Source of the DNA: Pseudomonadota bacterium
GTDB taxonomy: Bacteria > Pseudomonadota > Gammaproteobacteria > Burkholderiales > Casimicrobiaceae
Length of the DNA stretch: 49,176 nt
NCBI GenBank assembly: GCA_018241785.1
Contig: JAFEDF010000242.1
Coordinates: forward strand, 1 to 49,176
Direction of reading: 5' to 3'
The notes beneath the pieces are model-generated. The model worked only from the letters and a program-made list of their open reading frames with translations. It ran no database searches and was not told the DNA's origin. Below are positions 17,562 to 47,309 of the stretch, piece by piece; within the stretch, counting starts at the first letter, position 1, and each line of letters begins with the position of its first letter. The position numbers were made by a program, and so were the translations under genes.

Positions 17562-18254
17562 ATGCCCACCCCACGAATCGCCGCCCAGGCCTTCCTCTCG
17601 CGCCTGCCCCTGTTCAGCGACCTCGCCCCGGCCGAGCTCGAGCGCATCGCGCTCGGAACGACCGAGGTCCACGTTCCCCGCGGCGAGATCATCTTCAACC
17701 GCGGGGACCCCTGCACGGGCTTCCACCTCGTCGTCTACGGGCAGGTGAAGCTCGCAATCGTCACCGCGCAGGGCGACGAGAAGATCGTCGAGATCATCGC
17801 GCCAGGCTTTTCGTTCGGCGAAGCCGTGATGTTCATGGAGCGCCCCTACGTCGTGATGGCCCAGGCGCTCGCCGACTCGTTTCTGCTCCACGTCACCCGC
17901 CAGGTCGTATTCGACGAGATCGCGCGCGACGCGCGCTTCGCGAAAAAGATGCTTGCCGGACTGTCGCGGCGGCTGCACGGGCTGATCAGCGACGTCGAAT
18001 CGTATTCGCTGCAGTCGGGCACCGAGCGCCTGATCGGCTACCTGCTGCGCCGGGACGACGGCGAGCAGCGCGACGAGGGCTCCTACGTGGTCACGCTGCC
18101 GACGTCGAAGACGATCGTCGCCTCGCGGCTCAACCTCACTCCGGAGCACCTGTCGCGCATCCTGCACGACCTCGCCAGCGCCGAGCTGATCCGCGTCGAC
18201 GGGCGCGACATCCACATCGTCGACGCCGCAAGGCTGCGCAACTATCACCCGTAG
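17562..18254 (+). CDS. Crp/Fnr-superfamily regulator, Dnr-like
   Basis: 230-residue regulator with a cyclic-nucleotide-like sensor domain (about 15-135; VPRGEIIFNRGDPCTGFHLV, GFSFGEAVMFMERPY) and a winged helix-turn-helix near residues 170-220. The recognition region is SRLNLTPEHLSRILHDLA, again with a Glu-x-x-Ser-Arg pattern suited to TTGA(T/C)-type half-sites. It has no N-terminal cysteine cluster, so it is not an oxygen-sensing FNR. Dnr/NnrR-type NO sensors have this layout, and the nearby NOR-like operon makes that attractive but unproven. An ATG at 17535 would add nine residues but overlaps the likely -10. It converges on the trpD2-like gene with a 10-base overlap. Confidence 0.85.
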   Translation: MPTPRIAAQAFLSRLPLFSDLAPAELERIALGTTEVHVPRGEIIFNRGDPCTGFHLVVYGQVKLAIVTAQGDEKIVEIIAPGFSFGEAVMFMERPYVVMAQALADSFLLHVTRQVVFDEIARDARFAKKMLAGLSRRLHGLISDVESYSLQSGTERLIGYLLRRDDGEQRDEGSYVVTLPTSKTIVASRLNLTPEHLSRILHDLASAELIRVDGRDIHIVDAARLRNYHP

Positions 18255-19040: not shown

Positions 19041-19083
19041 ATTGTCGAAAACGTCGCCTCTGCGACGCATTGATTCGCATCAA
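19041..19083 (-). promoter_or_regulatory. Perfect FNR box (proximal to trpD2-like gene)
   Basis: TTGATTCGCATCAA (19070-19083) is an exact TTGAT-N4-ATCAA FNR/Anr site. Leftward, GACAAT (19046-19041) could be a -10 element 23 bases away, which would start RNA almost at the trpD2-like ATG (19033). It is also the upstream member of a tandem pair with the next site, 35 bases centre to centre. Confidence 0.72.
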
Positions 19084-19104
19084 GCGGGCAGCCGCAGGTT
19101 TTCT

Positions 19105-19146
19105 TTGATGCGCATCAATGGCGTCGGCGGTGCGCGTCTTTAGTGT
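19105..19146 (+). promoter_or_regulatory. Perfect FNR box and -10 element of the respiratory cluster
   Basis: TTGATGCGCATCAA (19105-19118) is a fully symmetric FNR site. TAGTGT (19141-19146) begins 22 bases after it, giving an inferred start near 19153 with the box centred at about -41.5. The first gene starts at 19226, leaving a leader of about 73 bases. Anaerobic activation of the whole rightward cluster is the natural reading. Confidence 0.75.
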
Positions 19147-19225
19147 CCGTTCCGTCGGCTGCTGCGCCGACGACGCCCGGCCACAGGGCCGGGCGCATTG
19201 CGAACGCACCGCGAGGAGCGCAACG

Positions 19226-19399
19226 ATGGCCGCACCCCAGACGATTCGACCCGAAGACGAAGCGGACGAGCCGGTCCCGGCGATGCAGCAACTGCTGGAC
19301 AACCCCTTCCTGCTGCTGTTCATCGGCATCGCGATGCCGACGGTGCTCTACGTCGTCTGGGGCGTGATGGAGATCGTCGGCATCCCGCTCGCCCGCTGA
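19226..19399 (+). CDS. Small single-pass membrane protein, probable oxidase subunit
   Basis: 57-residue protein with a polar, acidic N-terminal half and one hydrophobic helix (PFLLLFIGIAMPTVLYVVWG, about residues 30-50). GAGGAG lies eight bases before the ATG. It is the first gene after the tandem FNR boxes and lies 28 bases before the CuA subunit gene. Size and position recall the short subunit IIa/CbaD helix of ba3-type oxidases, which completes a truncated subunit II. I see no sequence motif that proves this. Confidence 0.7.
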   Translation: MAAPQTIRPEDEADEPVPAMQQLLDNPFLLLFIGIAMPTVLYVVWGVMEIVGIPLAR

Positions 19400-19427
19400 G
19401 CCGCGGACGCGCGACGAGGAGACCGCA

Positions 19428-19973
19428 ATGAGCGCGATTCAACCGCCGGCCGTCCGCGTATGGTGGAAGCAGCCGCTCGACCGTGTCGAGGGCACGTGGA
19501 TCGCCATCGCATTCGTATGGTGCCTCGTGATGTTCTTCATGATGCCGTACTGGCACGTGTACGGTAAGCAGAACCTCTCGAACGAGGCCTACCGGACGAC
19601 GCCCGAGCGCTACCAGCAGAAGACGCAGGAGATCGTCGATCGCTACACGGTGCGTACCGAGACCGACCTCAAGGTCCCCGTCGTGCACCCGCCCGCGGGA
19701 AGCGACGTCTACCTGATCGCGCGGCTCTGGCAGTGGTGGCCGATGCTCGAGCTCGAGGAGGGCAAGACCTACAGGCTCCACCTCGCGTCGATGGACTGGC
19801 TGCACGGCTTCTCGCTGCAGCCGGAGAACATCAACGTCGAAGTCCACCCGGGCTACGAGCACGTCGTCACGCTGACGCCGACGCGCGCCGGAACGTATTC
19901 GATCATCTGCAACGAGTACTGCGGCATCAACCATCACACGATGGCGAGCCGCCTCTATGTCGTGAAGCGATAG
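19428..19973 (+). CDS. Heme-copper oxidase/NO reductase subunit II with CuA site
   Basis: 181-residue membrane-anchored electron-entry subunit. It has one transmembrane helix (about residues 24-42, IAIAFVWCLVMFFMMPYW) followed by a cupredoxin domain. The dinuclear CuA ligands are all present: His126 (MDWLHGF), Cys161, Glu163, Cys165, His169 and Met172 in ICNEYCGINHHTM. A single N-terminal helix rather than a hairpin resembles ba3-type subunit II. GAGGAG precedes the start by six bases. It lies nine bases before the catalytic subunit. No fused cytochrome c domain is present, so electrons should come from a soluble cytochrome c or copper protein, or from the cytochrome b partners in this cluster. 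Confidence 0.92.
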   Translation: MSAIQPPAVRVWWKQPLDRVEGTWIAIAFVWCLVMFFMMPYWHVYGKQNLSNEAYRTTPERYQQKTQEIVDRYTVRTETDLKVPVVHPPAGSDVYLIARLWQWWPMLELEEGKTYRLHLASMDWLHGFSLQPENINVEVHPGYEHVVTLTPTRAGTYSIICNEYCGINHHTMASRLYVVKR

Positions 19974-19982
19974 GGGAACTTC

Positions 19983-21710
19983 ATGGCGATCAACAGGAAC
20001 TTCCGCACCTGCCCGACGACCGGGCTCGTCTTCCACGAGCAGGCCGACCGGCTGATCCGCTGGAACGCCGTCGCCGGGGTCGTGTCGCTGCTCGTCGGCG
20101 GGGTGCTCGCACTGCTCGTCACGCTCACCCGCTGGCCGGCGGTCCACCTGCTGCCTGCCGACTGGTTCTACCTCGTGCTGACGGCGCATGGGCTCGACAT
20201 GCTGGTGTTCTGGATCATCTTCTTCGAGATCGCCGTTCTCTACTTCTGCGGGGCGGTGCTGCTCCGATGCAGGATCGCGGCGCCGCGCTGGGCATGGCTC
20301 GGCTTCGCGCTGATGGTGATCGGCGCCGTCACCAACAACGTCGCAGTGTTCCGCGGCGATTCGAGCGTGATGTTCACCTCGTACGCGCCGATGGGCGCGC
20401 ACCCCGCCTTCTACCTCGGCCTGATCCTGTTCGCCGTCGGTGCGCTGATCGGCTGCTTCGTGTTCCTCGGCACGCTCGTCGTCGCGAGGAGCGAGGGCAC
20501 GTTCCACGGATCGCTGCCGCTCGTCACCTTCGGCGCGGTCACCGCGTGCATCATCGCGATCTTCACGATCGCCTCGGGCGCGATCATCCTGATCCCGACG
20601 TTCCTGTGGTCGATCGGGCTCGTCAGCCACATCGACTCGCTGATGTACCGGACCGTCTGGTGGGCGTTCGGCCACAGCTCGCAGCAGATCAACGTCGCCG
20701 CGCACGTGTCGATCTGGTACGCGATCGCCGCGATCGTGTTCGGCGCCAAGGCGCTCTCCGAGCGGGTCTCGCGCACCGCGTTCCTGCTCTACATCTGCTT
20801 CCTGCAGCTCGCGTCGGCGCACCACCTGCTCGCCGATCCGGGGCTCACGTCGAACTGGAAGATCTTCAACACGAGCTACGCGATGTACCTCGCCGTGCTG
20901 GCGTCGATGGTGCACGGCCTGACGGTGCCGGGGGCGATCGAGGTCGCGCAGCGCGAGAAGGGCTACAACCGCGGCCTGTTCGAGTGGCTGAGGAAGGCGC
21001 CGTGGGGCAATCCGGTGTTCTCGGGAATGTTCATCTCGCTCGTCGGATTCGGGTTCCTCGGCGGCATCTCGGGCGTGATGATGGGCACCGAGCAGCTCAA
21101 CCTGATCATCCACAACACGATCTACGTCCCGGGCCACTTCCATGCGACGGTCGTCGTCGGCACGACGCTCGCGTTCATGTCGATGACCTACTTCCTGATC
21201 CCGGTGCTGTTCCGCCGCGAGCTGATGTTTCCCGGGCTCGCCCGCTGGCAGCCGTATCTCTTCGGCCTCGGGATGAGCTCGTTCGCGCTCTTCATGATGG
21301 GCGCCGGCACGCTCGGGGTGCCGCGCAGGCACTGGGACATCACGTTCGCCGGCAACCCGCTCGGCTACGAGTTCCCGGGCACGGCGTACCTGATGATGGG
21401 CATCATGGCCCTCTCCGGCATCGTCGCGGTCGTCGGGGGCATCGCCTACCTGCTGATCACCGTCGGCAGCGTGTTCTTCGGCAAGCGGATCGGCGGATCG
21501 GAGTTCAAGGCGCTCTCGGTGCGCGAGGGGCGCGCGTCGCCGCCGGCTCCGCAGCCGGTCGCCGCAGCGATCACCGGCCACGGCAGCATCGGCATCGGCG
21601 GCTTCGTTGCGCCGGGGACCTTCACGCTGGCGCTCGTGTTCCTGGTCGCCTTCGTCCTCTACTACTTCGTGAATTGGAAATACCTGTCGACGCTCTGGCC
21701 GCTGTCCTAG
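19983..21710 (+). CDS. Heme-copper superfamily subunit I lacking the active-site tyrosine (candidate NO reductase)
   Basis: 575-residue integral membrane catalytic subunit of about 12-13 helices. All six canonical His ligands are present: His69 (TAHG, low-spin heme), His231, His280 and His281 (CuB/FeB site), and His385 and His387 (PGHFHATVVVG). Oxygen reductases carry a His-Pro-Glu-Val-Tyr motif in helix VI, whose Tyr is crosslinked to His. Here it reads GHSSQQINVAAH: Glu is replaced by Ser233 and Tyr by Gln235. No Tyr lies at the cbb3-type position six residues before the HH pair either. Loss of this Tyr marks NO-reducing branches such as the eNOR, sNOR, gNOR and nNOR families. Activity is inferred. 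It overlaps the sco gene by 37 bases. Confidence 0.88.
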   Translation: MAINRNFRTCPTTGLVFHEQADRLIRWNAVAGVVSLLVGGVLALLVTLTRWPAVHLLPADWFYLVLTAHGLDMLVFWIIFFEIAVLYFCGAVLLRCRIAAPRWAWLGFALMVIGAVTNNVAVFRGDSSVMFTSYAPMGAHPAFYLGLILFAVGALIGCFVFLGTLVVARSEGTFHGSLPLVTFGAVTACIIAIFTIASGAIILIPTFLWSIGLVSHIDSLMYRTVWWAFGHSSQQINVAAHVSIWYAIAAIVFGAKALSERVSRTAFLLYICFLQLASAHHLLADPGLTSNWKIFNTSYAMYLAVLASMVHGLTVPGAIEVAQREKGYNRGLFEWLRKAPWGNPVFSGMFISLVGFGFLGGISGVMMGTEQLNLIIHNTIYVPGHFHATVVVGTTLAFMSMTYFLIPVLFRRELMFPGLARWQPYLFGLGMSSFALFMMGAGTLGVPRRHWDITFAGNPLGYEFPGTAYLMMGIMALSGIVAVVGGIAYLLITVGSVFFGKRIGGSEFKALSVREGRASPPAPQPVAAAITGHGSIGIGGFVAPGTFTLALVFLVAFVLYYFVNWKYLSTLWPLS

Positions 21711-22513
21711 TCCTCGCCGCCGCGCTCGCGGCCCCGCCCGCGCGCGCGGCGATCGCTCCGCCGCCCACGGCGGCGCAGGCACCTCGCACGCAGGTCTTCG
21801 ATCGGGACAACGCACTCCGCGCGAGCTCGGCGGTGGTCGGCACGACTCCCGCGGACCGCGTGCTGTCGACCTCCGACGGCCGGACGATCCGCCTCGCCGA
21901 GCTTCGCGGCAGGCCGCTCATCGTGAGCTTCGTCTACACGGGCTGCACGCAGGTGTGCCCGGCGGCGACGCAGTTCCTCGCCGGGGCGGTCGCCGAAGCG
22001 CGGCGTGCCGTCGGTCCGGACAGCTTCACCGCGCTCACGATCGGCTTCAACCTTCCGTTCGACAACCCCCAGGCGATGCGCTCGTTCGCGCGCTCGCATG
22101 GCATCGACGGGCCGGGATGGATCGCGGCGAGCCCGGCCGCGGCCGACGTCGATGCGCTGGTGCGCGATTTCGGCTTCAGCTACGTCGCGACGCCGGCAGG
22201 ATTCGACCATATCGAGCAGGTGACGATCGTCGATGGCGGCGGGCGGATCGTCCGCCAGGTCTACGGCGACTCGTTCGCGCTGCCGATGCTGATCGATCCG
22301 CTGAAGGCTCTTGCCTCCGGCGCACCGCTTCCCGCCGGCGGCGGCCTCGCGGCGATCGCCGAGCGCGTGCGCGTCTGGTGCACGGTCTACGACCCCGCGC
22401 TGGGGCGCTACCGCTTCGATTACGGCCTCGTCATCGAGCTCGTCGCCGGAGCGACGATTCTCGGCGGCACGCTTGCCTACCTCGCGAGCGGGCGCAGGCG
22501 CCGCGGGACGTGA
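21674..22513 (+). CDS. Sco1/SenC-like copper chaperone with C-terminal anchor
   Basis: Thioredoxin-fold copper protein that loads or reduces the CuA centre. The ligands are Cys91 and Cys95 in FVYTGCTQVCP and His179 in GFDHIEQVTIVD. The proposed TTG start at 21674 gives a signal-like segment (ALAAVLVLAAALAAPPARA) and overlaps the subunit I gene by 37 bases; no ATG or GTG lies in a better place, so the start is uncertain. A second hydrophobic helix near the C-terminus (about residues 248-268) followed by a basic tail should fix it to the membrane, unlike most Sco proteins, which are anchored at the N-terminus only. Its presence fits the CuA subunit two genes upstream. Confidence 0.85.
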   Translation: MEIPVDALAAVLVLAAALAAPPARAAIAPPPTAAQAPRTQVFDRDNALRASSAVVGTTPADRVLSTSDGRTIRLAELRGRPLIVSFVYTGCTQVCPAATQFLAGAVAEARRAVGPDSFTALTIGFNLPFDNPQAMRSFARSHGIDGPGWIAASPAAADVDALVRDFGFSYVATPAGFDHIEQVTIVDGGGRIVRQVYGDSFALPMLIDPLKALASGAPLPAGGGLAAIAERVRVWCTVYDPALGRYRFDYGLVIELVAGATILGGTLAYLASGRRRRGT

Positions 22514-22529
22514 CGCAGGCCGGCCGGCC

Positions 22530-24476
22530 ATGCTGAAGCTCGTCCAGCGCATCCTGCAGCGGGTTTTCCTCGCCGTCGAGCGCGTGTTCAACCATGCATT
22601 CGGCGAGGAGAACAACCCGCTCTACCACCTGGGCGCGATCGCGTACTTCCTGATGTGGGTGGTCGTGGCGAGCGGCGTCTACCTCTACGTGTTCTTCCGC
22701 ACCGGGGTCGAGGAGGCCTATGCGTCGGTCGAGTACCTGACGCATACGCAGTGGTATGCAGGCGGGATCCTGCGCAGCCTGCACCGCTACGCATCCGACG
22801 GCGTGGTGCTCGCGATGCTGCTCCACGTGTGCCGCCATTTCACCTTCGATCACTACCGCGGCTTCCGCTGGTTCTCGTGGATCTCGGGGATCGTCGTGCT
22901 GTGGCTCGTCTACGTCTCGGGCATCAACGGCTTCATGCTGCCATGGGACCGGCTCGCACAGTACGTGACGGTCGGCAGCGCCGAGTGGCTCGACCGGCTG
23001 CCGATCTTCAGCGGAACGCTTGCACGCAACTTCCTGTCCCCGCAGGCGGTCGGCGACCGGCTGTTCTCGCTGCTGTCGTTCCTGCACATCGGCTTTCCGC
23101 TCGGCATTCTCGCGCTGCTGTGGATCCACACTCAGCGCGTGCCGCGCGCCACGACGCAGCCCCCGCGCCCGTTGATGGCGTGGCTCGCGGGATCGATGGT
23201 CGCGCTCTCGCTCGTGAAGCCGGTGGTGAGCCAGGGCCCGGCCGACCTCGCGACGGTGCCGCAGCAAATCGGCATCGACTGGTTCTACCTGCCGGTTTTT
23301 CCCCTCTTCGACCGCTGGACCCTCGGCAGCGTCTGGCTCCTCGTCGCCGTGTCGACGGTCGTCGTCGCCCTCCTTCCGTGGCTGCCGCCGCGGCGTGCCT
23401 CGCGCGGCGCGGCGCGGCAGATCATGCTCCGTCCGGACAACCGCGTCATCGCGGTGCGCGACGGCGAGACGCTGCTCGAGAGCGCGCTTCGCGACGGCAT
23501 CGACTTCCCGTTCGAGTGCAGGAGCGGCGGCTGCGGCGAGTGCAAGTGCACGATCGTCGCCGGGCGCGTCGACTACGGCAGCTATCAGGAGGACGTGCTC
23601 TCGACGCAGGAGCGCGCCGAAGGCAAGGCGCTCGCGTGCTGCGCGACGCCGCTCACCGACGTCGTGCTGCAGTACGTCCCGCGCACGGCGCCTGGCGGCA
23701 TCGCGGCCGGCCGCTTCCGCGCGCGCGTCGTGTCGATGGACCTGCTCGCCGACGACGTGATGCGCGTGCGGCTCGCCCCCGAGCACCGTGCAACGATCGC
23801 GTTCCGCGCCGGCCAGTACGTCAACGTCGTGCTCCCCGACGGCGAGCGGCGCAGCTTCTCGTTCGCCACCGCGCCGCACGTCGGCGGCCCGATCGAGCTG
23901 CAGGTCCGGCTCGTCGCCGGAGGCCGCTTCACGACCCACGTGTTCACGCGGATGAGAGTCGGCGACGACATCGATCTCGAGGGGCCGCTGGGGTCGTTCT
24001 TCCTGCGCGAGGACAGCGACAAGCCGATGATCTTCGTCGCGGGCGCCACCGGCTTCGCCCCGGTGAAGAGCATGCTCGAGCACGCGTTCCACACCGGCGT
24101 CGCGCGCCCGATGGTCCTGTACTGGGGTGTGCGCTCGCGCAAGGACCTCTACCTCGCCGACCTGCCGTACCGCTGGGAAGCCGAACACGCGAACTTCCGC
24201 TTCGTGCCCGTCCTGTCGGAGCCGCGGCCCGAGGACCACTGGACGGGACGCACCGGCCTCGTGCACGAGGCGATCCTCGCCGACTATCCCGACCTCTCGT
24301 CGCAGCAGCTCTATGCGTGCGGCTCGGTGGCGATGGTCGAGGCCGCGCATCCGGCGTTCGTCGCGCGCGGCCTTGCCGAAGACGACTGCTTCTCCGACGC
24401 GTTCAGGCTCGCAGCGCATCGGCCGCGCGTGCTTCCGGAGGCCGAGCTCGTGAGCCTCGGGGGACGGGCGCCGTGA
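22530..24476 (+). CDS. Cytochrome b / [2Fe-2S] ferredoxin / flavin NAD(P)H reductase fusion
   Basis: 648-residue three-part redox protein. Residues 1-300 are a cytochrome b of the b/b6 type with two His-x13-His pairs (His85/His99 and His186/His200), enough for two b hemes. Residues 310-390 are a plant-type ferredoxin, with CRSGGCGECKC (Cys330, 335, 338) and a fourth Cys at 370 or 371. The C-terminal 250 residues are a ferredoxin reductase, with RSFSFATAP for FAD and VAGATGFAPVKSMLEHA plus YACGSVAMVE for NAD(P)H. Electrons could run from NAD(P)H through FAD and the iron-sulfur centre to membrane hemes in one chain. The 16-base spacing to sco and the GTGA overlap with the next gene place it in the operon. 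Confidence 0.88.
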   Translation: MLKLVQRILQRVFLAVERVFNHAFGEENNPLYHLGAIAYFLMWVVVASGVYLYVFFRTGVEEAYASVEYLTHTQWYAGGILRSLHRYASDGVVLAMLLHVCRHFTFDHYRGFRWFSWISGIVVLWLVYVSGINGFMLPWDRLAQYVTVGSAEWLDRLPIFSGTLARNFLSPQAVGDRLFSLLSFLHIGFPLGILALLWIHTQRVPRATTQPPRPLMAWLAGSMVALSLVKPVVSQGPADLATVPQQIGIDWFYLPVFPLFDRWTLGSVWLLVAVSTVVVALLPWLPPRRASRGAARQIMLRPDNRVIAVRDGETLLESALRDGIDFPFECRSGGCGECKCTIVAGRVDYGSYQEDVLSTQERAEGKALACCATPLTDVVLQYVPRTAPGGIAAGRFRARVVSMDLLADDVMRVRLAPEHRATIAFRAGQYVNVVLPDGERRSFSFATAPHVGGPIELQVRLVAGGRFTTHVFTRMRVGDDIDLEGPLGSFFLREDSDKPMIFVAGATGFAPVKSMLEHAFHTGVARPMVLYWGVRSRKDLYLADLPYRWEAEHANFRFVPVLSEPRPEDHWTGRTGLVHEAILADYPDLSSQQLYACGSVAMVEAAHPAFVARGLAEDDCFSDAFRLAAHRPRVLPEAELVSLGGRAP

Positions 24477-24976
24477 AGCGCACGATGCGCATCGCGGCAC
24501 AGGCGGTCCTCTATGCCGCCTTCGTCGCGGTCATCGGCTATTTCTCGACGTCGCCTGCGTACGTCCACCTCGCGCCCGGCGAAGCGGTCGTCAAGCTCTC
24601 GCTGAGCCATGCAGGCGAGCGCAAGGAGCCATGCCGGACCCGCAGCGAAGCCGAGCTCGCGAAGCTCGCGCCGAACATGCGCTCACCGACCGTGTGTACG
24701 CGCGAGCGGGTTCCCGTGCGCATCGTGGTGGCGATCGACGGCACGACCATATTCGACGTCGTCGCGCAGCCGACCGGGCTCGCGAAGGACGGTGCGTCGA
24801 CCGTCTACCGGCGGCTCACCGTCGCCGCCGGCCGCCACCGCATCCGCGCCGAGCTCGCCGACGCACCGGGGGGCCGCATGACGTACTCGGCGACGACCGA
24901 GGTCGACCTCGCGCCCGGGCGCCTGCTCGTCATCGACTTCGCCCCCGAGGCCGGCGGCTTCGTGTTCCGGAGCTGA
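24473..24976 (+). CDS. Unknown membrane-anchored protein of the respiratory cluster
   Basis: I do not recognise this 167-residue protein. The GTG start overlaps the preceding stop (GTGA); an ATG at 24485 is an alternative. One hydrophobic helix (about residues 8-24, AQAVLYAAFVAVIGYF) is followed by a soluble domain, probably periplasmic, rich in alternating hydrophobic residues suggesting a beta-sandwich. It has two Cys (in KEPCRTR and PTVCTRE) that could form a disulfide or bind a metal. It is flanked by the two cytochrome b fusion genes with 3-4-base spacing or overlap, so it is likely a subunit or assembly factor of their complex. Confidence 0.75.
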   Translation: MKRTMRIAAQAVLYAAFVAVIGYFSTSPAYVHLAPGEAVVKLSLSHAGERKEPCRTRSEAELAKLAPNMRSPTVCTRERVPVRIVVAIDGTTIFDVVAQPTGLAKDGASTVYRRLTVAAGRHRIRAELADAPGGRMTYSATTEVDLAPGRLLVIDFAPEAGGFVFRS

Positions 24977-24979
24977 TCG

Positions 24980-26536
24980 ATGCGCGCAGCCCTCGCCGCC
25001 AGTCTCGACGCCTGCGAAGCTGCGTTCGACCGCGCATTCGGGCAGGCAGGCAACCCCTGGCGCCACCTCGGGAGTCTCGCGTTCCTGCTCGTCGTCGTCA
25101 CGACGGCGACCGGGATCGTCGTCTATGCGGTGTACGACACGAGCGTCGGCGGCGCCTACCGGTCGGTGCGCGCGATGTCCGCGGGCCCTCCCGCGGGACT
25201 TGCACTGGCGCGAAGCGTTCACCGCTACGCGTCGGACGCGCTCGTGCTGACGATGATCGCGCACCTCGCCCGCGAATGGCTGCGCGGACACGCCGCCGGC
25301 TTTCGCTGGTTCTCGTGGCTCTCGGGCGTGCCGCTCGTGGCGCTCGTCTACGCATCGGGCATCGGCGGCTACTGGCTGCCGTTCGACCGGCTCGCGCAGC
25401 TGAGCCTCACCGCGACGACCGAGTGGCTCGACGCGCTTCCGCTCTTCGGCGAGCCGCTCGCGCGCAACTTCGTCTCGCCCGCATCCGTGCCGGACCGGCT
25501 GCTCTCGCTCCTCGTGTTCCTGCACATCGGCATCCCGCTCGCGCTCCTCGCCTTCATCGGTGTTCACCTGCTGCGCCTGACGCGCCCGCGGAGCTTTCCG
25601 CCGGCGACGATCGCCGCGGCGACCTGCGCGGCGCTCGTCGTCCTCGCGCTCATGCATCCCGCGCGCGCGCTCGCCGAAGCCGATTTCGGATCGGAGCCGA
25701 TGACCGTCGCGTTCGACTGGCCGTACCTGTTCATCCACGCGCTGCAGTACCGAACGTCGCCGCAGCTGCTGTGGGCGGCGGCCGGCGCCGCGGGGCTCGT
25801 GCTCGCCGTGCTGCCGTGGATCGAGCGAACGCCGCACGCACCGGCGGCGTGCGTCGACCTCGCGAACTGCAATGGTTGCGGGCGCTGCTTTGCCGATTGC
25901 CCGTACGCAGCGATCACCCTCGTCGCACGCAGCGACGGCAGGCACCTTCCGCGGCAGGCCGAGGTCGACCCCCGGCGCTGCGCATCGTGCGGCATCTGTG
26001 CCGGCGCGTGTCCGTCGTCGACGCCGTTTCGCAGCGGATCCGACCTCGCGACAGGGATCGACCTTCCGCAGGCGCCGATCCGCGCACTTCGCGCGAGCCT
26101 CGACCGTGCGCTCGAGACACTCGCGCCGAGGCCGGCGATCGTCGTGTTCGGCTGCGCATCGGGGGTCGAGGTCGCCTCCGTTCGCGAGCCTGGAACGGCG
26201 CCGATCGAGCTCGTCTGTATCGCCATGCTCCCGCCGTCGTTCGTCGAATACGCGCTGCGCGCGGGCGCCGACGGCGTGATGGTGTCGGGGTGCCGTGAAG
26301 GCGACTGCGCGTACCGGCTCGGCCACGAAATCCTGCGCGCGCGCCTCGAAGGATCGCGCGAGCCGCGCCTGCGTGCGCGCGTCTCGCGTGCGCGCGTGCG
26401 GACCTTCTGGGGTGCACGCGCCGACGCGCGCTCGCTCTCTGCGGCGGTGGCGGCGTTTCGCCGCGACCTCGCGGCGTCGCCGCGAGCCGCCGGGCCGTCG
26501 ATGCCGCCGAAGCGGCGGGAGGCATTGGATGCGTGA
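24980..26536 (+). CDS. Cytochrome b / 2[4Fe-4S] ferredoxin / MvhD-FlpD-like fusion
   Basis: 518-residue redox protein. Residues 1-285 are a cytochrome b paralogous to that of the gene two upstream, with His81/His95 and His182/His196. Two [4Fe-4S] motifs follow: CNGCGRCFADCP (Cys297, 300, 303, 307) and CASCGICAGACP (Cys334, 337, 340, 344). The last third (about 385-455) resembles the MvhD/FlpD family, which passes electrons between a hydrogenase or dehydrogenase and HdrA: FGCASGVEV (Cys392), ELVCIAMLP (Cys413) and VSGCREGDC (Cys438, 443). MvhD proteins carry a [2Fe-2S] cluster. No hydrogenase or Hdr genes are in the window, so the donor is unknown; reduced ferredoxin is a possibility. Confidence 0.85.
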   Translation: MRAALAASLDACEAAFDRAFGQAGNPWRHLGSLAFLLVVVTTATGIVVYAVYDTSVGGAYRSVRAMSAGPPAGLALARSVHRYASDALVLTMIAHLAREWLRGHAAGFRWFSWLSGVPLVALVYASGIGGYWLPFDRLAQLSLTATTEWLDALPLFGEPLARNFVSPASVPDRLLSLLVFLHIGIPLALLAFIGVHLLRLTRPRSFPPATIAAATCAALVVLALMHPARALAEADFGSEPMTVAFDWPYLFIHALQYRTSPQLLWAAAGAAGLVLAVLPWIERTPHAPAACVDLANCNGCGRCFADCPYAAITLVARSDGRHLPRQAEVDPRRCASCGICAGACPSSTPFRSGSDLATGIDLPQAPIRALRASLDRALETLAPRPAIVVFGCASGVEVASVREPGTAPIELVCIAMLPPSFVEYALRAGADGVMVSGCREGDCAYRLGHEILRARLEGSREPRLRARVSRARVRTFWGARADARSLSAAVAAFRRDLAASPRAAGPSMPPKRREALDA

Positions 26537-27968
26537 CGCACACACGGCCGGCCCGGGTCTTGCGCCGCCGCGCGTCGTCCGCAGCGCGCCCGCCGGCGCC
26601 GTGCAGGCGCGGCGCGGCTACGCGCTCGAGGTGCCGTCGGAGGCGCACCGGCGCCTTGCCGCGGCCTGGCTGCTGCTGGGAGTCGCCGCACTGGTCGGCG
26701 CCGGGCTGCTCGCGGTGCTCCTCGTCGTCGCGCGAACGCCCGGACTGCGCGAGGCGATGCCCAGCGCGGACTTCTTCCGCGTCGTGCTCGTCGCGCACGT
26801 CGACCTGTCGGTGCTCGTCTGGTTCCTCGCCTTCGCGGGCGTGCTGTGGACGATCAACAGCGGCTCACACGCGCTCGCTGCGGGCTGGCTCGCCCTCGCG
26901 CTCGTGGCGTGTGCTGCCGCAGCGATCGCGATCTCGCCGTTCGCCGGGACGGCTGCGCCGGTCATGTCGAACTACATTCCGGTACTCGACGGCCCGGTAT
27001 TCCTCGCCGGGCTCATCATCCTCGGCGCTGGCGTCGCGCTGCTCGTCGTGCGCGGGATGCGGCAGGCGCCTCCGGTCGGCACGACGCTCGACGGTTCGGC
27101 CGCGCTTCGCTTCGGCCTCAACGCCTCGCTGGTGTCGGCGGCGGTTGCACTGATCGCGTTCGGCTGGTCGTGGGCCGCCATCCCGCGATCGCTCCCAGCG
27201 GCCGGCTACTACGACATCCTGTTCTGGGGCGGCGGCCACGTGCTGCAGTTCACGTGGAGCCTGCTCCTCGTCGTCGCCTGGCTGTGGCTCGCCGACGCGG
27301 CCGGGTTGACGCTGCCGCTGTCGCCGAGGGTCGTGACGCTCCTGTTCGGGGTCGGGCTTGCATCGGTGTTCGCGATCCCGCTGATCTACCTTGCCTTCGA
27401 TGTCGGATCGGTCGAGCACCATCGCCTGCTCACCTGGCTGATGCGCTTCGGCGGGGCCCTCGCGATCCCGCCGATCGGCATTGCCGTCGCGTGGTCGCTC
27501 GTGCGCCAGCGCGCGGGCTCGCCGGCCGCGCGCGCGCCGCGGGCGGCGCTCGCCGCGTCGCTCGTGCTGTTCGCCGCCGGCGGGGCGATCGGCTTCCTCA
27601 TCCGCGGCAGCGACGTGCGCATTCCCGCGCATTACCACGGCGCGATCGTCGGCGTGACGATCGCCATGATGGGGCTCGCCTATCACCTCCTTCCCCGCCT
27701 CGGGCTGGCGATGCCGTCGGTGCGCCTTGCGACGCTGCAGCCGTGGGTCTACGGTGGCGGACAGCTCGTCCACATCACGGGCCTCGTGTGGTCGGGCGGC
27801 TACGGCGTCCAGCGCAAGGTCGCCGGAAGCGAGCAGGTGCTGCACGGCGCCCGCGAGGTCGCCGGCATGGCGTTGATGGGTGCCGGAGGATTGGTCGCGG
27901 TGATCGGAGGCCTGCTGTTCGTCGTCGTCGTGCTGCAGGCGCTCGCCTCGCGCCGGTGTTCGCGATGA
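26529..27968 (+). CDS. Second heme-copper subunit-I-like protein lacking the tyrosine
   Basis: 479-residue integral membrane protein with about 12 hydrophobic helices. The six ligand His of the superfamily are kept: His90 (LVAHVDLSVLVW), His237 (GGGHVLQFTW), His297 and His298 (VEHHRLLTW), and His368 and His370 (PAHYHGAIVG). At the helix VI position of the catalytic Tyr there is Phe241, preceded by Gln240, and the cbb3-type Tyr position before the HH pair is Asp. It is very different from the subunit I at 19983 and looks closer to the NorB/CcoN side of the superfamily. The start at 26529 overlaps the previous gene by eight bases, and the end overlaps the next gene (ATGA). It may be a second NO-reducing centre or a structural partner. 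Confidence 0.78.
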   Translation: MRDAHTAGPGLAPPRVVRSAPAGAVQARRGYALEVPSEAHRRLAAAWLLLGVAALVGAGLLAVLLVVARTPGLREAMPSADFFRVVLVAHVDLSVLVWFLAFAGVLWTINSGSHALAAGWLALALVACAAAAIAISPFAGTAAPVMSNYIPVLDGPVFLAGLIILGAGVALLVVRGMRQAPPVGTTLDGSAALRFGLNASLVSAAVALIAFGWSWAAIPRSLPAAGYYDILFWGGGHVLQFTWSLLLVVAWLWLADAAGLTLPLSPRVVTLLFGVGLASVFAIPLIYLAFDVGSVEHHRLLTWLMRFGGALAIPPIGIAVAWSLVRQRAGSPAARAPRAALAASLVLFAAGGAIGFLIRGSDVRIPAHYHGAIVGVTIAMMGLAYHLLPRLGLAMPSVRLATLQPWVYGGGQLVHITGLVWSGGYGVQRKVAGSEQVLHGAREVAGMALMGAGGLVAVIGGLLFVVVVLQALASRRCSR

Positions 27969-28813
27969 GCTCGCAGGCCAGCGCGCCCGCACCCCGGCGC
28001 GAGCGCGTGCTTGCGAACGCTTCGGTCGCGCTGATGGCGATCGTCGTCGTCGCGAGCGCGTTCATCCGCCTCGCGCGTCCAGGCCTCGAGTGCGCGGCCG
28101 GGCCGGACTGCACGGCCGGTGTTCGCGAGCCTGCGCTCGCCGCCATGGTTGCCGTCGCCCGCGGCATGCACCGGATCGCGGCGGCGGGCGTCGGACTCGC
28201 GCTCGTCGCGCTCACCGCGGCGGCGGTCGCGCGCCGCCCCCGCGACCGTGGGGCGATCGTGCTTGCGGTAGCGGCACTCGTCCTCACCGTCGTGCTCGCG
28301 GCCGCCGGCGCACGCGGCGCGGAGCGCGCAGCCGGCGGCCCTGCGGCGGGAACCACCTTCGTCAATGCCTTCGGGGGGCTCGCGCTGCTCGCCGTCCTGT
28401 GGCGCGTGCGCATCGGCACGCTCGTACGCGCGACACCGGCGACGCGCGCGGCGCGCGCGGCAGCCGGCCTTGCGCTGGCAGCGGCCGCCGCGTGGATCGC
28501 CACCGACACGGCCATCGCCGCCGGCCTCGCTGCGGATGAAGTCTTCACCCGTATCGTGCGCGTTGCCCTCGCGGGTCTCGGCGCATCGGGACTCGTCGCC
28601 TGCGTGCTGCTCGCACGCGGGCGGCCGCCGCAACGCCGCCTCGCGGTGGTGATCGCAGTGCTCGTCGCTGCGGTCATCACGACCGCCTCGCTCGGCCGCC
28701 CCGGCGGCTCTGTCGACCCGGCCGTCGCGATCGCCTCCGGGCTCGTCCACGTTGTCGCCGTCGCGCTGCTTCTCGGCGCGCTCGTCGGTGCAGCGTCGGG
28801 TCACTCGGTGTAG
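27965..28813 (+). CDS. Short CtaA/Cox15-like membrane protein
   Basis: 282-residue, mostly hydrophobic protein of about eight helices. IRLARPGLECAAGPDCTAG matches the region after the first helix of heme A synthase (Cox15/CtaA), including its two Cys, and ARGMHRIAAAGVG holds a conserved heme-binding His. A later SGLVHVVAVALLL contributes another His. It is shorter than typical Cox15 and may be a degenerate or specialised branch. If it makes heme A or O, one of the heme-copper proteins in the cluster would use that heme. It is the last gene of the rightward cluster and overlaps the 3' end of the leftward ferritin-like gene by 13 bases. Confidence 0.72.
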   Translation: MSSQASAPAPRRERVLANASVALMAIVVVASAFIRLARPGLECAAGPDCTAGVREPALAAMVAVARGMHRIAAAGVGLALVALTAAAVARRPRDRGAIVLAVAALVLTVVLAAAGARGAERAAGGPAAGTTFVNAFGGLALLAVLWRVRIGTLVRATPATRAARAAAGLALAAAAAWIATDTAIAAGLAADEVFTRIVRVALAGLGASGLVACVLLARGRPPQRRLAVVIAVLVAAVITTASLGRPGGSVDPAVAIASGLVHVVAVALLLGALVGAASGHSV

Positions 28814-29379
28814 CGCGGCGGGTCGGGGTCGTCCGACCAGTTGGGAAGCGGCCGCTCGACGCGCTCCATCCACGAGCGGATCAACTCGACGTGGGCGCGC
28901 TCCTCGTCCCTCAGCGCAAGCGCGGCCTCGCGCAGCTCCGGACTGCGCGCAACGCCCGCGAGGCGATCGAAGAAGCGCTCGGCGCGCACCTCGAATTCGA
29001 GTGCAAGCTCGAGCGCGTGATAGGGCTGCATCAGGTAGTGAAGCGCATCGACCGGCGGCGCCTCGGGCGACTCCGCTGCCGCCGCGTGCCCGGGCTGCGG
29101 CGCGTCGCTCCACCCCATCTCCGAGAGGAGAGCCTGCGCATGGCCGAGCTCGATCACCGACATCCGGCGAAAGAGCTCGGTGACCTCGCGGTTGTTGTGC
29201 GTCTCCATCGCGTCGGCGAGCTCGGCGTAGCGAGCCGCCGCGTCGCGCTCCATGTGCACCGCGAGCGTCAGCAGCTCGGCGAGGCTCGCAGGGGTCGCCG
29301 TCGCGCCAACCGCGTCGACGCCGACCGCTGCTTCCGGGTTCGCCCGAGCCTCGGTGTCACGCCGCTCAGGCGGTGTCAT
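28801..29379 (-). CDS. Ferritin-like/rubrerythrin-type di-iron protein in the kor operon
   Basis: 192-residue protein with a ferritin-like four-helix pattern. Candidate di-iron ligands are Glu in VHMERDAAARYAE, Glu and His in VIELGHAQALL, Glu in EFEVRAERFF, and Glu and His in LRDEERAHVEL. There is no rubredoxin domain. Its start overlaps the korB stop (ATGA), so it is cotranscribed and translationally coupled with the 2-oxoglutarate:ferredoxin oxidoreductase. Rubrerythrin-like proteins remove peroxide or oxygen, so protection of the oxygen-sensitive KorAB or benzoyl-CoA reductase system is a sensible inference. Iron storage is less likely at this size. Confidence 0.8.
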   Translation of the reverse strand: MTPPERRDTEARANPEAAVGVDAVGATATPASLAELLTLAVHMERDAAARYAELADAMETHNNREVTELFRRMSVIELGHAQALLSEMGWSDAPQPGHAAAAESPEAPPVDALHYLMQPYHALELALEFEVRAERFFDRLAGVARSPELREAALALRDEERAHVELIRSWMERVERPLPNWSDDPDPPRYTE

Positions 29380-30215
29380 CGCTCGAACTCGCGCACGAGG
29401 TCGTCGGGTGCGGCGGTTGCGGCCCGCGCACCTGCCTGAGCCGTCGGACGATCGGCGACGTAGAGCACGCCGAGATTGAAGCCGTCGTCGGTCATCAGCC
29501 TGCGCGCCGCGCGCGCAGGATCCGACGTCGCCGCGACGGGTGCCGGACGCACGCGCTCCTTCCACTCGCGCTGCTCGGGGCGGAAGGTGACGCAGGGGCT
29601 GAGGATCTCGACGAACGAGAAGCCGCGGTGGTCGATCGCCTGCGCGAGGAGCTCGGCGCACCCGTTCGGGTCTCCCGAGAAGCCGCGGGCGATGAACCCT
29701 GCGCCTGCGGCAAGCGCGATGACGAGTGGATGGAACACGCGTAGCCCCGTCCCTCCCGGCGCGAGCCGCGAATCCCAGTCGGGCTCGGTCGTCGGCGACG
29801 GCTGCCCTTTCGTCATCCCGTACACGTGGTTGTCCATCACGACGTAGGTGAGGTCGACGTTGCGCCGGCATGCGTGCAGGAAATGGTTGCCGCCGATCGA
29901 GTAGCCGTCGCCATCGCCGCTCGCGACGAGGACGGTGAGGTCGGGGCGTGCGACCTTGAGCCCGGTCGCCGCGGCGAGCGAGCGGCCGTGCACACCGTGA
30001 AATCCGTAGCAGCGCGTGTACGCGGGGATGCGCGACGAGCACCCGATCCCCGAGACGACGACGACCTCCTCGGGAGAGAGGCCGAGCTTCGCGAGCGCCT
30101 TCGTCGTCGCGCTCAGCACCGAGTAGTCGCCGCAGCCGGGGCACCAGATCGGCTTGTAGCTCGACTTGTAGTCCTGCGCCGTGCGGGCGGCCAGCGCGGC
30201 TGCGACGTCGTTCAT
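29376..30215 (-). CDS. korB: 2-oxoacid (2-oxoglutarate):ferredoxin oxidoreductase, beta subunit
   Basis: 279-residue TPP-binding subunit. WCPGCGDYSVL near the N-terminus holds cluster-ligand Cys, and the TPP/Mg motif runs from SGDGDGYSIGGNHFLHA to DNHVYGMTKGQPSPTT. With KorA it oxidises a 2-oxoacid plus CoA to acyl-CoA and CO2 and reduces ferredoxin. In Thauera aromatica the 2-oxoglutarate enzyme is the electron source for benzoyl-CoA reductase. The start at 30215 has GGAG seven bases upstream and overlaps the korA stop (ATGA). Substrate choice is inferred from the adjacent benzoyl-CoA genes; pyruvate cannot be excluded. Confidence 0.88.
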   Translation of the reverse strand: MNDVAAALAARTAQDYKSSYKPIWCPGCGDYSVLSATTKALAKLGLSPEEVVVVSGIGCSSRIPAYTRCYGFHGVHGRSLAAATGLKVARPDLTVLVASGDGDGYSIGGNHFLHACRRNVDLTYVVMDNHVYGMTKGQPSPTTEPDWDSRLAPGGTGLRVFHPLVIALAAGAGFIARGFSGDPNGCAELLAQAIDHRGFSFVEILSPCVTFRPEQREWKERVRPAPVAATSDPARAARRLMTDDGFNLGVLYVADRPTAQAGARAATAAPDDLVREFER

Positions 30216-31999
30216 CGTGCGCTCCATTCGCGGATCGCCTGCACGATCTCGCCGGGGCGCAGCGGCAGCGGCCCCGGACGATGGAAGCTCTCGGTCCGCC
30301 CCGGCAGGTCGGCGTACGCGCGCAGGTAGCGGTAGAGCTGCGCGCCGTAATTCTGCTCGACGACGAGGATCCGCGACACGCCGTCGAGCGCATGCGCGAG
30401 CGCCGCGGCGTCGATCGGTGCGATCAGGCGAAGGGCGACGAGCCGCGCATCGAGCCCGGCCGCCCTGACGCGCATGAGCGCCTCGCGCACCGGGCCGACC
30501 GCCGAGCCGAACGCGATGACGGCGTACGCGCCGCTTCCCTCGACGCTCGCCCAGCGCGGGCCATAGTCGTACGAGGCGAGCTTGCGCGAGCGCTTGTCGA
30601 GCTGCATCCGGTGATCGCGCCCCTGGCTGCTCGGGATGCCGGACTCGGTGTGCTCGAGCCCGTCGGCGGTGTAGACGGTCCCGGGCGTGCCGGGAATGGC
30701 CATCGGCGACACTCCGCTCGGAGTGTCGCGGTAGCGCCGGTAGTCCGGGTCGTTCGCCGGCGCCGTCACGCGCCGGGCGACCCCGTCCGGGAGCGGCGGC
30801 GCGTCGATGATCGCGCGCGCCTGCCCGAGGAACTGGTCGGAGAGAACGATCGCCGGGGTTTGCAGCGCCTCGGCGAGGTGCACGGCCCACTGCGTCGTCG
30901 CCGCGCAATCGGCGATCGACGTCGGCGCGACCACGATGCGCGGAGCGTCGCCGTGCAGGCCGCCGACCGCGAACGAGAGATCCGACTGCTCGCTCTTCGC
31001 CGGGATGCCGGTCGACGGACCGCCGCGCATCACGTCGACGACGACGACAGGCACTTCGGCGGCGACCGCGAGACCGATGCCTTCGGCCATCAGCGAAAGG
31101 CCAGGCCCCGCCGTCGCGGTGAGTGACGGGACACCGCCGTAGGAGGCACCGACGATCATGTTGATCGAGGCGAGCTCATCCTCGGCCTGGACGAGCGCGC
31201 CCCCGACCTTCGCGAGCGCCGGCGCCATCCATTCGAGCAGCTCGGTCGCCGGAGTGATCGGATAGGCGGCGACGAAGCGCACGCCGCCGCGCACCGCGCC
31301 GAACCCTGCCGCTTCGTTGCCGCTGACGAGCCACCGGCGTCCGCGCGCCGGCGCGAGCGGCGTCGCTTCGGACGGCTGGCTCGCACCACCCAGTCCGGCA
31401 GCCGCCGCGTAACCGCCGGAGAGCGCCGCGAGATTCGCCGCGAGCGCGTCGTCGCCCCTGTGCCAGGATGCCCGCACCGCGGACTCGAGCGCGGCGAGCG
31501 GAAGGCGCCCGAGCGCACCGGCGAGACCAAGCGCCAGCATGTTGATCCAGCTCCCCGGCATCTCGCGCGCCATGCGCTTGAGAGGCAGCGGCACGCTGCG
31601 TGCGCCGCTCGCTGCAAAGATGTCGGGCACCTCGCCTTCGTCGGCGTCGCCGACGACGATGCTAGACGGCGCGAGCACGATCTCGTCGGCGAAGCGCCCG
31701 ACGTTGCGCCAGTCGATCGCAACCAGCAGGTCGAACGTGTCGTCGAGCGATTCGACGGGGACCGAGGCGAGCCGGACGAGTGCGGCAGCCTCGCCGCCGC
31801 GGATCTGCGGACCGCTGCTGCGGACCATCAGCCCGTAGCGCCCGGCGCGGGCGGCCGCTTCGAGCAACAGCGTTCCGGCAGTCATCACGCCGGCGCCACC
31901 GCTGCCCGCGATCGCGACCGACCACGAGCGGATCGGCGCAGGCGAAGCCGTCGCCGATGCGGCGGGCCGCGCTTCGCGCTCGTCGACGGCGACCCGCAT
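30212..31999 (-). CDS. korA: 2-oxoacid (2-oxoglutarate):ferredoxin oxidoreductase, fused gamma-alpha subunit
   Basis: 595-residue fusion. The N-terminal 190 or so residues are the gamma domain (IAGSGGAGVMTAGTLLLEAA, SSGPQIRGGEAAALVR). The rest is the alpha/pyrimidine-binding part (GNEAAGFGAVRGGVRFVAAY, PITPATELLEWM, TATAGPGLSLMAEG). This domain order is typical of KorA in aromatic-degrading betaproteobacteria and many other bacteria. GAGG lies seven bases before the ATG. The gene diverges from the benzoyl-CoA operon across a 210-base region with a perfect FNR box. A KorC-type flavoprotein, as in the NADP-linked Azoarcus evansii enzyme, is not seen, so ferredoxin should be the acceptor. Confidence 0.9.
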   Translation of the reverse strand: MRVAVDEREARPAASATASPAPIRSWSVAIAGSGGAGVMTAGTLLLEAAARAGRYGLMVRSSGPQIRGGEAAALVRLASVPVESLDDTFDLLVAIDWRNVGRFADEIVLAPSSIVVGDADEGEVPDIFAASGARSVPLPLKRMAREMPGSWINMLALGLAGALGRLPLAALESAVRASWHRGDDALAANLAALSGGYAAAAGLGGASQPSEATPLAPARGRRWLVSGNEAAGFGAVRGGVRFVAAYPITPATELLEWMAPALAKVGGALVQAEDELASINMIVGASYGGVPSLTATAGPGLSLMAEGIGLAVAAEVPVVVVDVMRGGPSTGIPAKSEQSDLSFAVGGLHGDAPRIVVAPTSIADCAATTQWAVHLAEALQTPAIVLSDQFLGQARAIIDAPPLPDGVARRVTAPANDPDYRRYRDTPSGVSPMAIPGTPGTVYTADGLEHTESGIPSSQGRDHRMQLDKRSRKLASYDYGPRWASVEGSGAYAVIAFGSAVGPVREALMRVRAAGLDARLVALRLIAPIDAAALAHALDGVSRILVVEQNYGAQLYRYLRAYADLPGRTESFHRPGPLPLRPGEIVQAIREWSAR

Positions 32000-32034
32000 C
32001 GACTGTCCTCACTCCTGCGTCTGGCGATGACCGC

Positions 32035-32103
32035 AGTAGACGTTGCACACGCGCGGATTGCGTTGATTCGCATCAAGGTCGCCGCAGGTGCAGACGCTAG
32101 CAT
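32035..32103. promoter_or_regulatory. Perfect FNR box in a bidirectional korA / had promoter region
   Basis: TTGATTCGCATCAA (32063-32076) is an exact FNR site, identical in sequence to the one at 19070. Leftward, TCTACT (32040-32035) begins 22 bases away, matching four of six -10 bases. Rightward, TAGCAT (32098-32103) begins 21 bases away, also four of six. One box could thus act as a class II activator site for both korAB and the benzoyl-CoA operon. I found no second obvious operator in 32000-32209. Confidence 0.72.
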
Positions 32104-32209
32104 CGATCGGGTCGATCCGTTCGGCGCAACCGCGAGCGGCGACGAGGCGGCGCGGATCGCACACCCCGCGTCGGCAATCATCGCGCGTCGTCGATGAAAG
32201 GCAGGCAGC

Positions 32210-33277: not shown

Positions 33278-33291
33278 CCGTGGAGATCGCG

Positions 33292-34422: not shown

Positions 34423-34425
34423 ACG

Positions 34426-37663: not shown

Positions 37664-37672
37664 GCCGCCGCC

Positions 37673-39840: not shown

Positions 39841-39882
39841 TTCCGGCGCGGACGGCGCCGCAAAGACCGAGGAGAAACCCCG

Positions 39883-40128
39883 ATGGCCCTCACGATCAAC
39901 GAGAACTGCACCGCCTGCGACGCCTGCAGGCCGGTGTGCCCGAACGAAGCGATCGCCGTCGGCGATCCGATCTACGTGATCGATCCGCTGCGCTGCACCG
40001 AGTGCGTCGGCGCCGAGGACGAGCCGCAGTGCCGTCTCGCGTGCCCGGTCGACTGCATCGTCCAGCATCCCGACTTCCGGGAGTCGCGCGAAGAGCTGCT
40101 CGCGAAGTACGAGTCGCTGCACGTCTGA
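39883..40128 (+). CDS. fdx: 2[4Fe-4S] ferredoxin for benzoyl-CoA reductase
   Basis: 81-residue low-potential ferredoxin, the same length as the Thauera aromatica electron donor of benzoyl-CoA reductase. The first cluster motif is Cys9-x2-Cys12-x2-Cys15-x3-Cys19. The second has the extended Chromatium-type spacing Cys38-x2-Cys41-x8-Cys50-x3-Cys54, followed by a helical tail. GAGGAG lies eight bases before the ATG. It should be reduced by KorAB, encoded at the other end of the region, and deliver electrons to BcrAD. Confidence 0.94.
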   Translation: MALTINENCTACDACRPVCPNEAIAVGDPIYVIDPLRCTECVGAEDEPQCRLACPVDCIVQHPDFRESREELLAKYESLHV

Positions 40129-45679: not shown

Positions 45680-45731
45680 GTCATTGCCCGGTGCGCATCG
45701 CCGCCCGAGCGGTCGCGGTCATCGCGCCTCC

Positions 45732-47260: not shown

Positions 47261-47309
47261 GCCACACCTCGATCGGCGACCGCCGCGGCGGCCTCTCGCG
47301 CGTGCACGC

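Follow-up and report, generated by a model that had tools for sequence, protein, structure and literature searches.

A cluster of nine genes in a 49,176-nt stretch of contig JAFEDF010000242.1 (Casimicrobiaceae, assembly GCA_018241785.1; this whole stretch is referred to as the window) raises the question of what is reduced by a heme-copper protein without the active-site tyrosine, and from where its electrons are supplied. Nine intact rightward open reading frames (ORFs), g1 to g9, were found from 19226 to 28813, spaced in order by +28, +9, -37, +16, -4, +3, -8 and -4 nt, in agreement with a sequence-only reading of the window, which had described nine tightly spaced or overlapping genes behind two perfect FNR boxes. 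Judged by its sequence, the core formed by g2 and g3 is of a known kind, the nitric oxide (NO) reductase family eNOR, and what is new is the set of partners around it. We consider it moderately probable that this eNOR-family enzyme reduces NO to nitrous oxide (N2O) under low oxygen, with electrons from NAD(P)H and iron-sulfur (Fe-S) donors of the cytoplasm reaching it by way of the cytochrome b fusions g5 and g7; the pathway proposed by the sequence-only reading, NO-linked and supplied with electrons from the cytoplasm via b hemes, remains the best interpretation. The nine genes are listed below, where counts over loci refer to 38 related stretches of at least 9 kb each, with two duplicates removed, one Thermus plasmid included and the window not counted.

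19226..19399, + strand: g1, 57-aa protein with a single hydrophobic stretch, a predicted membrane helix (in 36/38 g3 loci)
19428..19973, + strand: g2, CuA subunit II (181 aa; Pfam COX2)
19983..21710, + strand: g3, eNOR-type subunit I with Gln replacing the active-site Tyr (575 aa; Pfam COX1)
21674..22513, + strand: g4, Sco/SenC copper-insertion protein with a signal-like N-terminus and a predicted TTG start (279 aa; Pfam SCO1-SenC)
22530..24476, + strand: g5, cytochrome b6/IV-like membrane part followed by a 2Fe-2S ferredoxin and a flavin adenine dinucleotide (FAD)/NAD(P)H reductase (648 aa; Pfam Cytochrome_B, Fer2 and FAD/NAD-binding)
24473..24976, + strand: g6, anchored protein in which two Cys are conserved, of no known family (167 aa; no Pfam match)
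24980..26536, + strand: g7, cytochrome b6/IV-like membrane part followed by two 4Fe-4S sites and an MvhD/FlpD domain (518 aa; Pfam Cytochrome_B, Fer4 and FlpD/MvhD)
26529..27968, + strand: g8, CuB-less paralogue of eNOR subunit I (479 aa; Pfam COX1, ligand alignment, tree and distribution)
27965..28813, + strand: g9, hydrophobic protein, weakly CtaA-like by a short motif alone (282 aa; in 6/38 loci)

Domains of the nine proteins were called with Pfam, which for g1, g6 and g9 was taken down to E 0.1 and returned nothing up to that value for any of the three. The same calls agreed with the earlier labels of CuA subunit II, Sco, cytochrome b/ferredoxin/flavin reductase and cytochrome b/ferredoxin/MvhD-like protein.

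The g2-g3 core among NO reductases

The CuA ligands of g2 (H126, C161, E163, C165, H169 and M172) were complete in 45/45 alignment rows, and g3 starts 9 nt after the end of g2, the CuA/cupredoxin subunit thus lying directly upstream of subunit I. Among 44 distinct g3-family sequences, that of the window included, the heme and CuB ligands H72, H233, H282, H283, H384 and H386 (ba3 numbering) were present in every one, while the position of ba3 Tyr237 was occupied by Gln and that of Thr312 by His, also in 44/44; of the residues compared for the one conserved proton channel of eNOR, Y248 and S309 (both K-channel-like) and T315 were retained, against the change to His at Thr312. The best PDB matches of g3 were ba3-type oxidases. 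Homologues from a Thermus thermophilus plasmid and from Thermomicrobium shared 46-47% identity with g3 and the same Gln and His changes, with Gln at the Tyr position found in two Thermus and one Thermomicrobium sequence. At the Thermus thermophilus plasmid loci L131 and L132, the Gln-type subunit I has HFK for HFH, that is, a Lys at the position of a low-spin heme ligand.

A maximum-likelihood tree, in which the Thermus and Thermomicrobium homologues stood in for the eNOR of Rhodothermus marinus, grouped them with the Gln-type subunit I sequences in one clade (100/100), separate from the Tyr-type B (ba3) oxidases, sNOR, A-type and C/NOR types; NorB-like rows were placed in a clade other than that of g3. 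Neither of the two subunit I proteins of the cluster, g3 and g8, fell among ordinary oxygen reductases, a placement that had been proposed as a check on the sequence-only reading.

PMC8756737 selects eNOR sequences by a Gln that takes the place of the Tyr, and locates the cupredoxin subunit immediately upstream. Because g3 has Gln at the Tyr site and the CuA subunit directly upstream, the g2-g3 core is assigned to the eNOR kind. The residues that mark other classes were not found: the active-site Tyr of the heme-copper oxygen reductases is Gln in g3 and Phe in g8, so that both proteins lack it as had been claimed; the same two residues stand where gNOR has Asp (Table A4 of PMC8756737); and g3 has Gln instead of the Glu that, together with a NorB-type sequence, characterises cNOR/qNOR. 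A further type, nNOR, is named in PMC11388526, PMC12569097, PMC11707229 and PMC10359470.

The order of CuA subunit, subunit I and Sco genes is shared with norSY-senC of ammonia oxidisers, which encode sNOR. A reading of g2, g3 and g4 as sNOR was ruled out because the site residue is Gln and not the Asn of sNOR (FGHVFIN), which forms a separate clade, and because a separate sNOR is found elsewhere in the genome. This second enzyme lies on host contig C212 (L006), has the Asn site (FGHVFIN), and is accompanied by CuA and Sco homologues. A search for g3 in ammonia oxidisers, covering eight genomes of one family that bear ammonia monooxygenase (AMO), gave one weak match, which was an ordinary Tyr-type oxidase.

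An eNOR has reportedly been characterised in Rhodothermus marinus, and the literature reports eNOR in Gallionellaceae and Zetaproteobacteria. With eNOR this locus shares the Gln at the Tyr position, the upstream CuA/cupredoxin subunit and the kinship to the B family, and with the Thermus plasmids also the small protein gene in first place; it differs by adding Sco (residues C91, C95 and H179 of g4 were present in 36/36 cases), two cytochrome b fusions, g6 and a CuB-less paralogue, all known here from sequence. The earlier suggestion of an uncharacterised kind of system therefore applies to the partner set, whereas the catalytic core agrees with eNOR. No description of this partner set was found in a literature search outside which most subscription papers lay.

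Two cytochrome b fusions and a paralogue without CuB

The membrane part, with six helices by homology, is common to g5 and g7. Its profile matched cytochrome b6 (E 6.5e-34) and, separately, subunit IV of the cytochrome b6f complex, which was the top match of a profile built on the last two helices (E 4.3e-6); the conserved DW(F/Y) motif aligned onto the Qo-site PEWY of subunit IV, with the PEWY Glu represented by Asp. Each of the four heme His of g5 was kept in 20-21 of 21 sequences, while in g7 three were kept in 46/46 and the first in 43/46 (3 gaps). All eight 4Fe-4S Cys of g7 were present in 46/46 sequences, as were three of the four MvhD Cys, the fourth (C443) being found in 45/46. The C-terminal head of g5 shares with the benzoate dioxygenase reductase BenC the order of ferredoxin, FAD and NAD domains (score 209 vs. 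a cut-off of 430), and differs from it in being fused to a membrane part. BenC-like reductases normally oxidise NADH.

As in the cytochrome b6f/bc1 complexes, two pairs of heme His lie in b6-type helices of g5 and g7, and the subunit-IV-like pair that follows has DW at the site of PEWY; unlike in those complexes, no Rieske or cytochrome f/c1 domain was detected by Pfam among the nine proteins, and NAD(P)H or Fe-S/MvhD heads are fused to the membrane part. The top NCBIfam match to this part was ExtP, the cytochrome b of selenite/tellurite operons (48/48 rows matched, vs. 24/48 for ExtQ), with scores far below the curated cut-offs; moreover, the Ext families are separate, whereas here one fused protein is found. 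A quinone link is possible for g5 and g7, because the subunit-IV-like part of each contains a motif resembling PEWY. Among the 38 related loci, g5 occurred without g7 in 2 and g7 without g5 in 13, a pattern that suggests one membrane module able to bear either of two heads. The anchored protein g6, which gave chance-level matches only against PDB, was present in 30 of these loci, always together with g5 or g7.

The second subunit I, g8, is best described as a paralogue of eNOR in which the CuB site is incomplete. It matched g3 over the full length in a profile comparison (E 1.1e-44) and fell within the Gln-type clade (100/99), a constraint with the Tyr-type B oxidases being rejected (p-AU 0.006), on a long branch that leaves its exact placement uncertain. 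Among 78 aligned sequences, H90 (77, one gap), H368 (78) and H370 (78), which are the heme ligands, were conserved. The first CuB His (H233 equivalent) was found in 78/78, the second (H282 equivalent) was never His, and the third position (H283 equivalent) was Tyr in 48, His in 15 and another residue or a gap in 15, the window having Tyr. The residue at +3 from the first CuB His was an invariant Gln, and that at +4 was Phe in 76/78. Of the heme ligands and CuB triad that define the heme-copper superfamily, the triad is thus incomplete in g8, and a reading of g8 as a second complete reductase was ruled out by the family-wide absence of the helix VII His.

Stretches with g8 and neither g3 nor g7 numbered 30, some of them from genomes with g3 on another contig and one (L153) being a fragment of locus L123. 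CtaA was found on 15 of them, adjoining g8 in 14, and a CuA-like protein on 7 (L153 excluded), adjoining g8 in 3. Pfam confirmed CtaA on L122 and L168; of the CuA-like proteins, that of L177 passed COX2 and that of L169 gave only a sub-threshold cupredoxin match. In family f79 (small genomes of 1.7-2.6 Mb, outside the host's class) g8 adjoins CtaA at L168-L172, L175, L176 and L187, and a CuA-like subunit is on the stretch in six of these eight loci; g8 and the CuA-like protein possibly make up another heme-copper-like enzyme there, of two subunits and lacking CuB. Close relatives of g8 carry the names of Casimicrobiaceae, Burkholderiales and Betaproteobacteria metagenome-assembled genomes, and a search for g8 on plasmids gave no match.

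The last gene, g9, had been called CtaA-like. A short motif agrees with this label and 2/4 CtaA histidine positions are retained, but no Pfam match, COX15-CtaA profile included, and no significant PDB match was obtained.

Distribution, NO linkage and regulation

The gene order recurred in other genomes, a search that had been suggested for this cluster. Among the carriers is a cultivated one, Simplicispira hankyongi NY-02 (locus L041). Over the 38 stretches, presence decreased from g2 (38), g4 (37) and g1 (36) to g6 (30), g7 (28), g8 (22), g5 (17) and g9 (6). In 61 related genomes, the host's own included, g3 was found in 18, g8 in 20 and both in 17 (p 4e-11), and in a phylum sample (n=398) g3 was found in 31 (36 matches minus 5 weak ones at 28-30%; one of the 31 partial), g8 in 59 and both in 30 (p 1e-27), by Fisher tests that ignore relatedness. 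Expressed by genome, g8 was present in 30/31 g3-bearing vs. 29/367 g3-lacking members of the phylum sample, whose g3 carriers are nearly all within the phylum yet outside the host's class. In the 30 g3-bearing genomes besides the host, g7 and g8 were each found in 29, often on other contigs; some genomes of other classes (e.g. G470 and G498) have g3, g7 and g8 on three different contigs, all retained. With regard to the proposal of one complex or pathway, the NO-linked pathway stood as the best reading, while a single complex is no more than a possibility, given this scattering.

A UbiA-family gene (CtaB) was located between g3 and g4 in 6/6 loci inspected at that place, and CtaB-type genes were found on 16/23 g3 stretches. 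In an alphaproteobacterial Defluviimonas plasmid (L130), which has g3 at 63% identity together with g7, the corresponding gene is annotated as heme o synthase. The plasmid carries homologues of the small protein, a CuA-place protein, g3, the heme o synthase, Sco, g7 and g6, followed by a hemerythrin; the gene set can therefore be plasmid-borne.

Cytochrome d1 matches under E 1e-100 were detected in 15/18 g3-bearing vs. 8/43 g3-lacking relatives (p 3e-6). At the level of single stretches, d1-type (nirS or nirN), nirJ-like radical SAM or nirDL-like genes were present on 9/23 g3 stretches, and nirS-type genes on 4/5 stretches with a g7 match and no g3, the fifth having a weak g7 match of 26%; five representatives of the d1-family members were checked by Pfam. 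Two Thermus thermophilus plasmid copies have a multicopper oxidase and a DUF542 gene in their vicinity, and one of them also a cytochrome P460 gene (deposited annotation, 2 of 11 Thermus records). The host assembly (3.49 Mb, 262 contigs) gave eight COX1-type matches, seven of them over the cut-off.

Perfect TTGAT-N4-ATCAA boxes (TTGATNNNNATCAA) lie at three positions in the window (19070, 19105 and 32063), where five matches with at most one mismatch were observed vs. 0.17 expected. Those upstream of g1 and a Crp/Fnr-family gene are as follows.

17562..18254, + strand: Crp/Fnr-family regulator, 230 aa, with one Cys, at 51 (Pfam cNMP_binding and HTH_Crp_2)
19070..19083, no strand assigned: perfect FNR/DNR-type box TTGATTCGCATCAA, upstream of g1
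19105..19118, no strand assigned: perfect FNR/DNR-type box TTGATGCGCATCAA, upstream of g1

Boxes with at most one mismatch were found in the 700 nt before g2 in 23/36 related loci, against an expectation of 2.5, derived from stretches drawn at random within these 36 loci. The cluster had been described as FNR-controlled; the FNR-type set of four cysteines is absent from both Crp/Fnr-family genes examined, at 17562-18254 and at 9472-10248 (two Cys in the latter), and control by FNR is therefore only presumptive. The boxes could equally be of DNR type, with the product of 17562-18254 as a possible DNR-type regulator.

Downstream of the cluster, a benzoyl-CoA degradation cluster (29376-40128) comprises a 2-oxoacid:acceptor oxidoreductase, had, oah, dch, bcrB, bcrA, bcrD and a ferredoxin, as well as, in the place of bcrC, a second HGD-D protein; among these, had, oah, dch, bcrB, bcrA, bcrD and the oxidoreductase alpha subunit exceeded the NCBIfam cut-offs. 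The box at 32063, before the benzoyl-CoA cluster, is identical to the first box (19070). Homologues of korAB, had and dch also follow a g3-type cluster at L031. Benzoyl-CoA degradation was rejected as part of the set, korA being found in 1/38 related loci. A Rubrerythrin-domain protein (28822-29328, minus strand) is convergent with g9, and two molybdopterin-type oxidoreductase genes lie further downstream (42819-49106, minus strand).

Competing readings and implications

Under the reading that we favour, electrons would pass in g5 from NADH to FAD, the 2Fe-2S center and the heme b pair, and in g7 from a ferredoxin-like donor through the 4Fe-4S/2Fe-2S centers to the heme b pair; from there they would reach the outer face, directly or via quinone, and then CuA, the hemes of g3 and NO. 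Sco, in many relatives together with CtaB/CtaA, would build the copper and heme O/A centers, g6 would be a periplasmic docking piece, and g8 a catalytically silent heme partner acting as electron relay, NO-binding regulator or scaffold. A Crp/Fnr-type regulator would switch the set on under anoxia or NO. In this scheme it is by inference that we state which way the electrons flow, whether quinone takes part, what g6, g8 and g9 do, and whether the proteins belong to a single complex.

The retention in g3 of the CuB ligands and of the K-channel-like Y248 and S309, its place within the B family and the oxidase-like heme set suggested by the CtaB/CtaA neighbours would also suit a microoxic oxygen reductase, with O2 at low tension as the main substrate of g2-g3 and NO reduced only on the side; the authors of PMC6967387 argue the same role for sNOR. 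This reading appears unlikely, as the cross-linkable Tyr is replaced by Gln throughout the family, g3 is linked to cytochrome d1, and eNOR is counted among the biochemically characterised NO reductases in PMC11388526. Rather improbable is a role of g5-g9 in maturation, i.e. in heme A/O and copper insertion, with eNOR fed as usual by cytochrome c via CuA. Such a role would be in line with the CtaB-type genes on g3 stretches, the CtaA genes that mostly adjoin g8 on g8-only stretches, the Sco gene of 37/38 loci and the incomplete CuB site of g8, yet the CuA-like subunits of some g8-only stretches resemble those of an electron-accepting enzyme, and g7 occurs with nirS-type genes away from g3.

The architecture of g5 and g7, where b6 helices with four heme His precede a subunit-IV-like pair with DW(F/Y) on PEWY, together with low-potential-type heads, the lack of a Rieske domain among the nine proteins and CuA as a candidate high-potential branch, also invites a bifurcating scheme: quinol would be oxidised at the PEWY-like site, one electron passing to CuA and NO and the other inward to NAD(P)H or reduced ferredoxin. 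We hold it to be quite improbable, given that BenC-like heads normally work in the direction of NADH oxidation, that the PEWY Glu is Asp, and that the Thermus core has neither g5 nor g7 on the stretch examined; in addition, we know of no precedent for CuA replacing a Rieske protein. A more elaborate version, a Rieske-less NO-driven bifurcating system in which ferredoxin made by g7 would be usable by the adjoining benzoyl-CoA reductase and g8 would be a heme bridge between the two halves, is very improbable.

Several observations weigh against NO reduction by an eNOR fed from NAD(P)H and Fe-S donors, the reading retained here. The PEWY-like motif points to a site for quinone; electrons passing straight from NADH to CuA would have no use for one. 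The Thermus and Thermomicrobium cores lack g5-g8 on the stretches examined, and the partners are therefore not required for eNOR as such; likewise, 29 g3-lacking genomes of the phylum sample retain g8, which must therefore also have another role. The Fisher tests leave relatedness aside, and 13/36 related loci have no box with at most one mismatch before g2. Some of the matches are interrupted: one g8 match (genome G605) reads through three stops, and the g7 matches of genus g243 (genomes G470, G498, G525 and G601) read through one TGA, which may be a true end, a sequence error or a recoded codon. In the host, no full-length nirS was found, cytochrome d1 giving a single partial match (38.8 bits, above the Pfam cut-off), and no nirK over the cut-off; a separate sNOR and a NorB-like protein are also present, and the neighbour of the cluster in the window is the anaerobic benzoyl-CoA cluster rather than denitrification genes.

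Members of eNOR, a recently recognised family of NO reductases, are called cytochrome oxidases by standard annotation, and their contribution to N2O is easily overlooked. If the partner set feeds eNOR, NO would be reduced by cytoplasmic NAD(P)H/Fe-S electrons via a dedicated cytochrome b, and the bc1 complex with cytochrome c would not be the sole route to the enzyme. For research on heme-copper proteins, it is puzzling that a CuB-less paralogue so closely accompanies the active enzyme. With b6/IV modules that bear NAD(P)H or MvhD heads, bifurcation linked to quinone beyond the bc complexes becomes open to test. N2O is a greenhouse gas, and core members of the set are found together across many proteobacteria.

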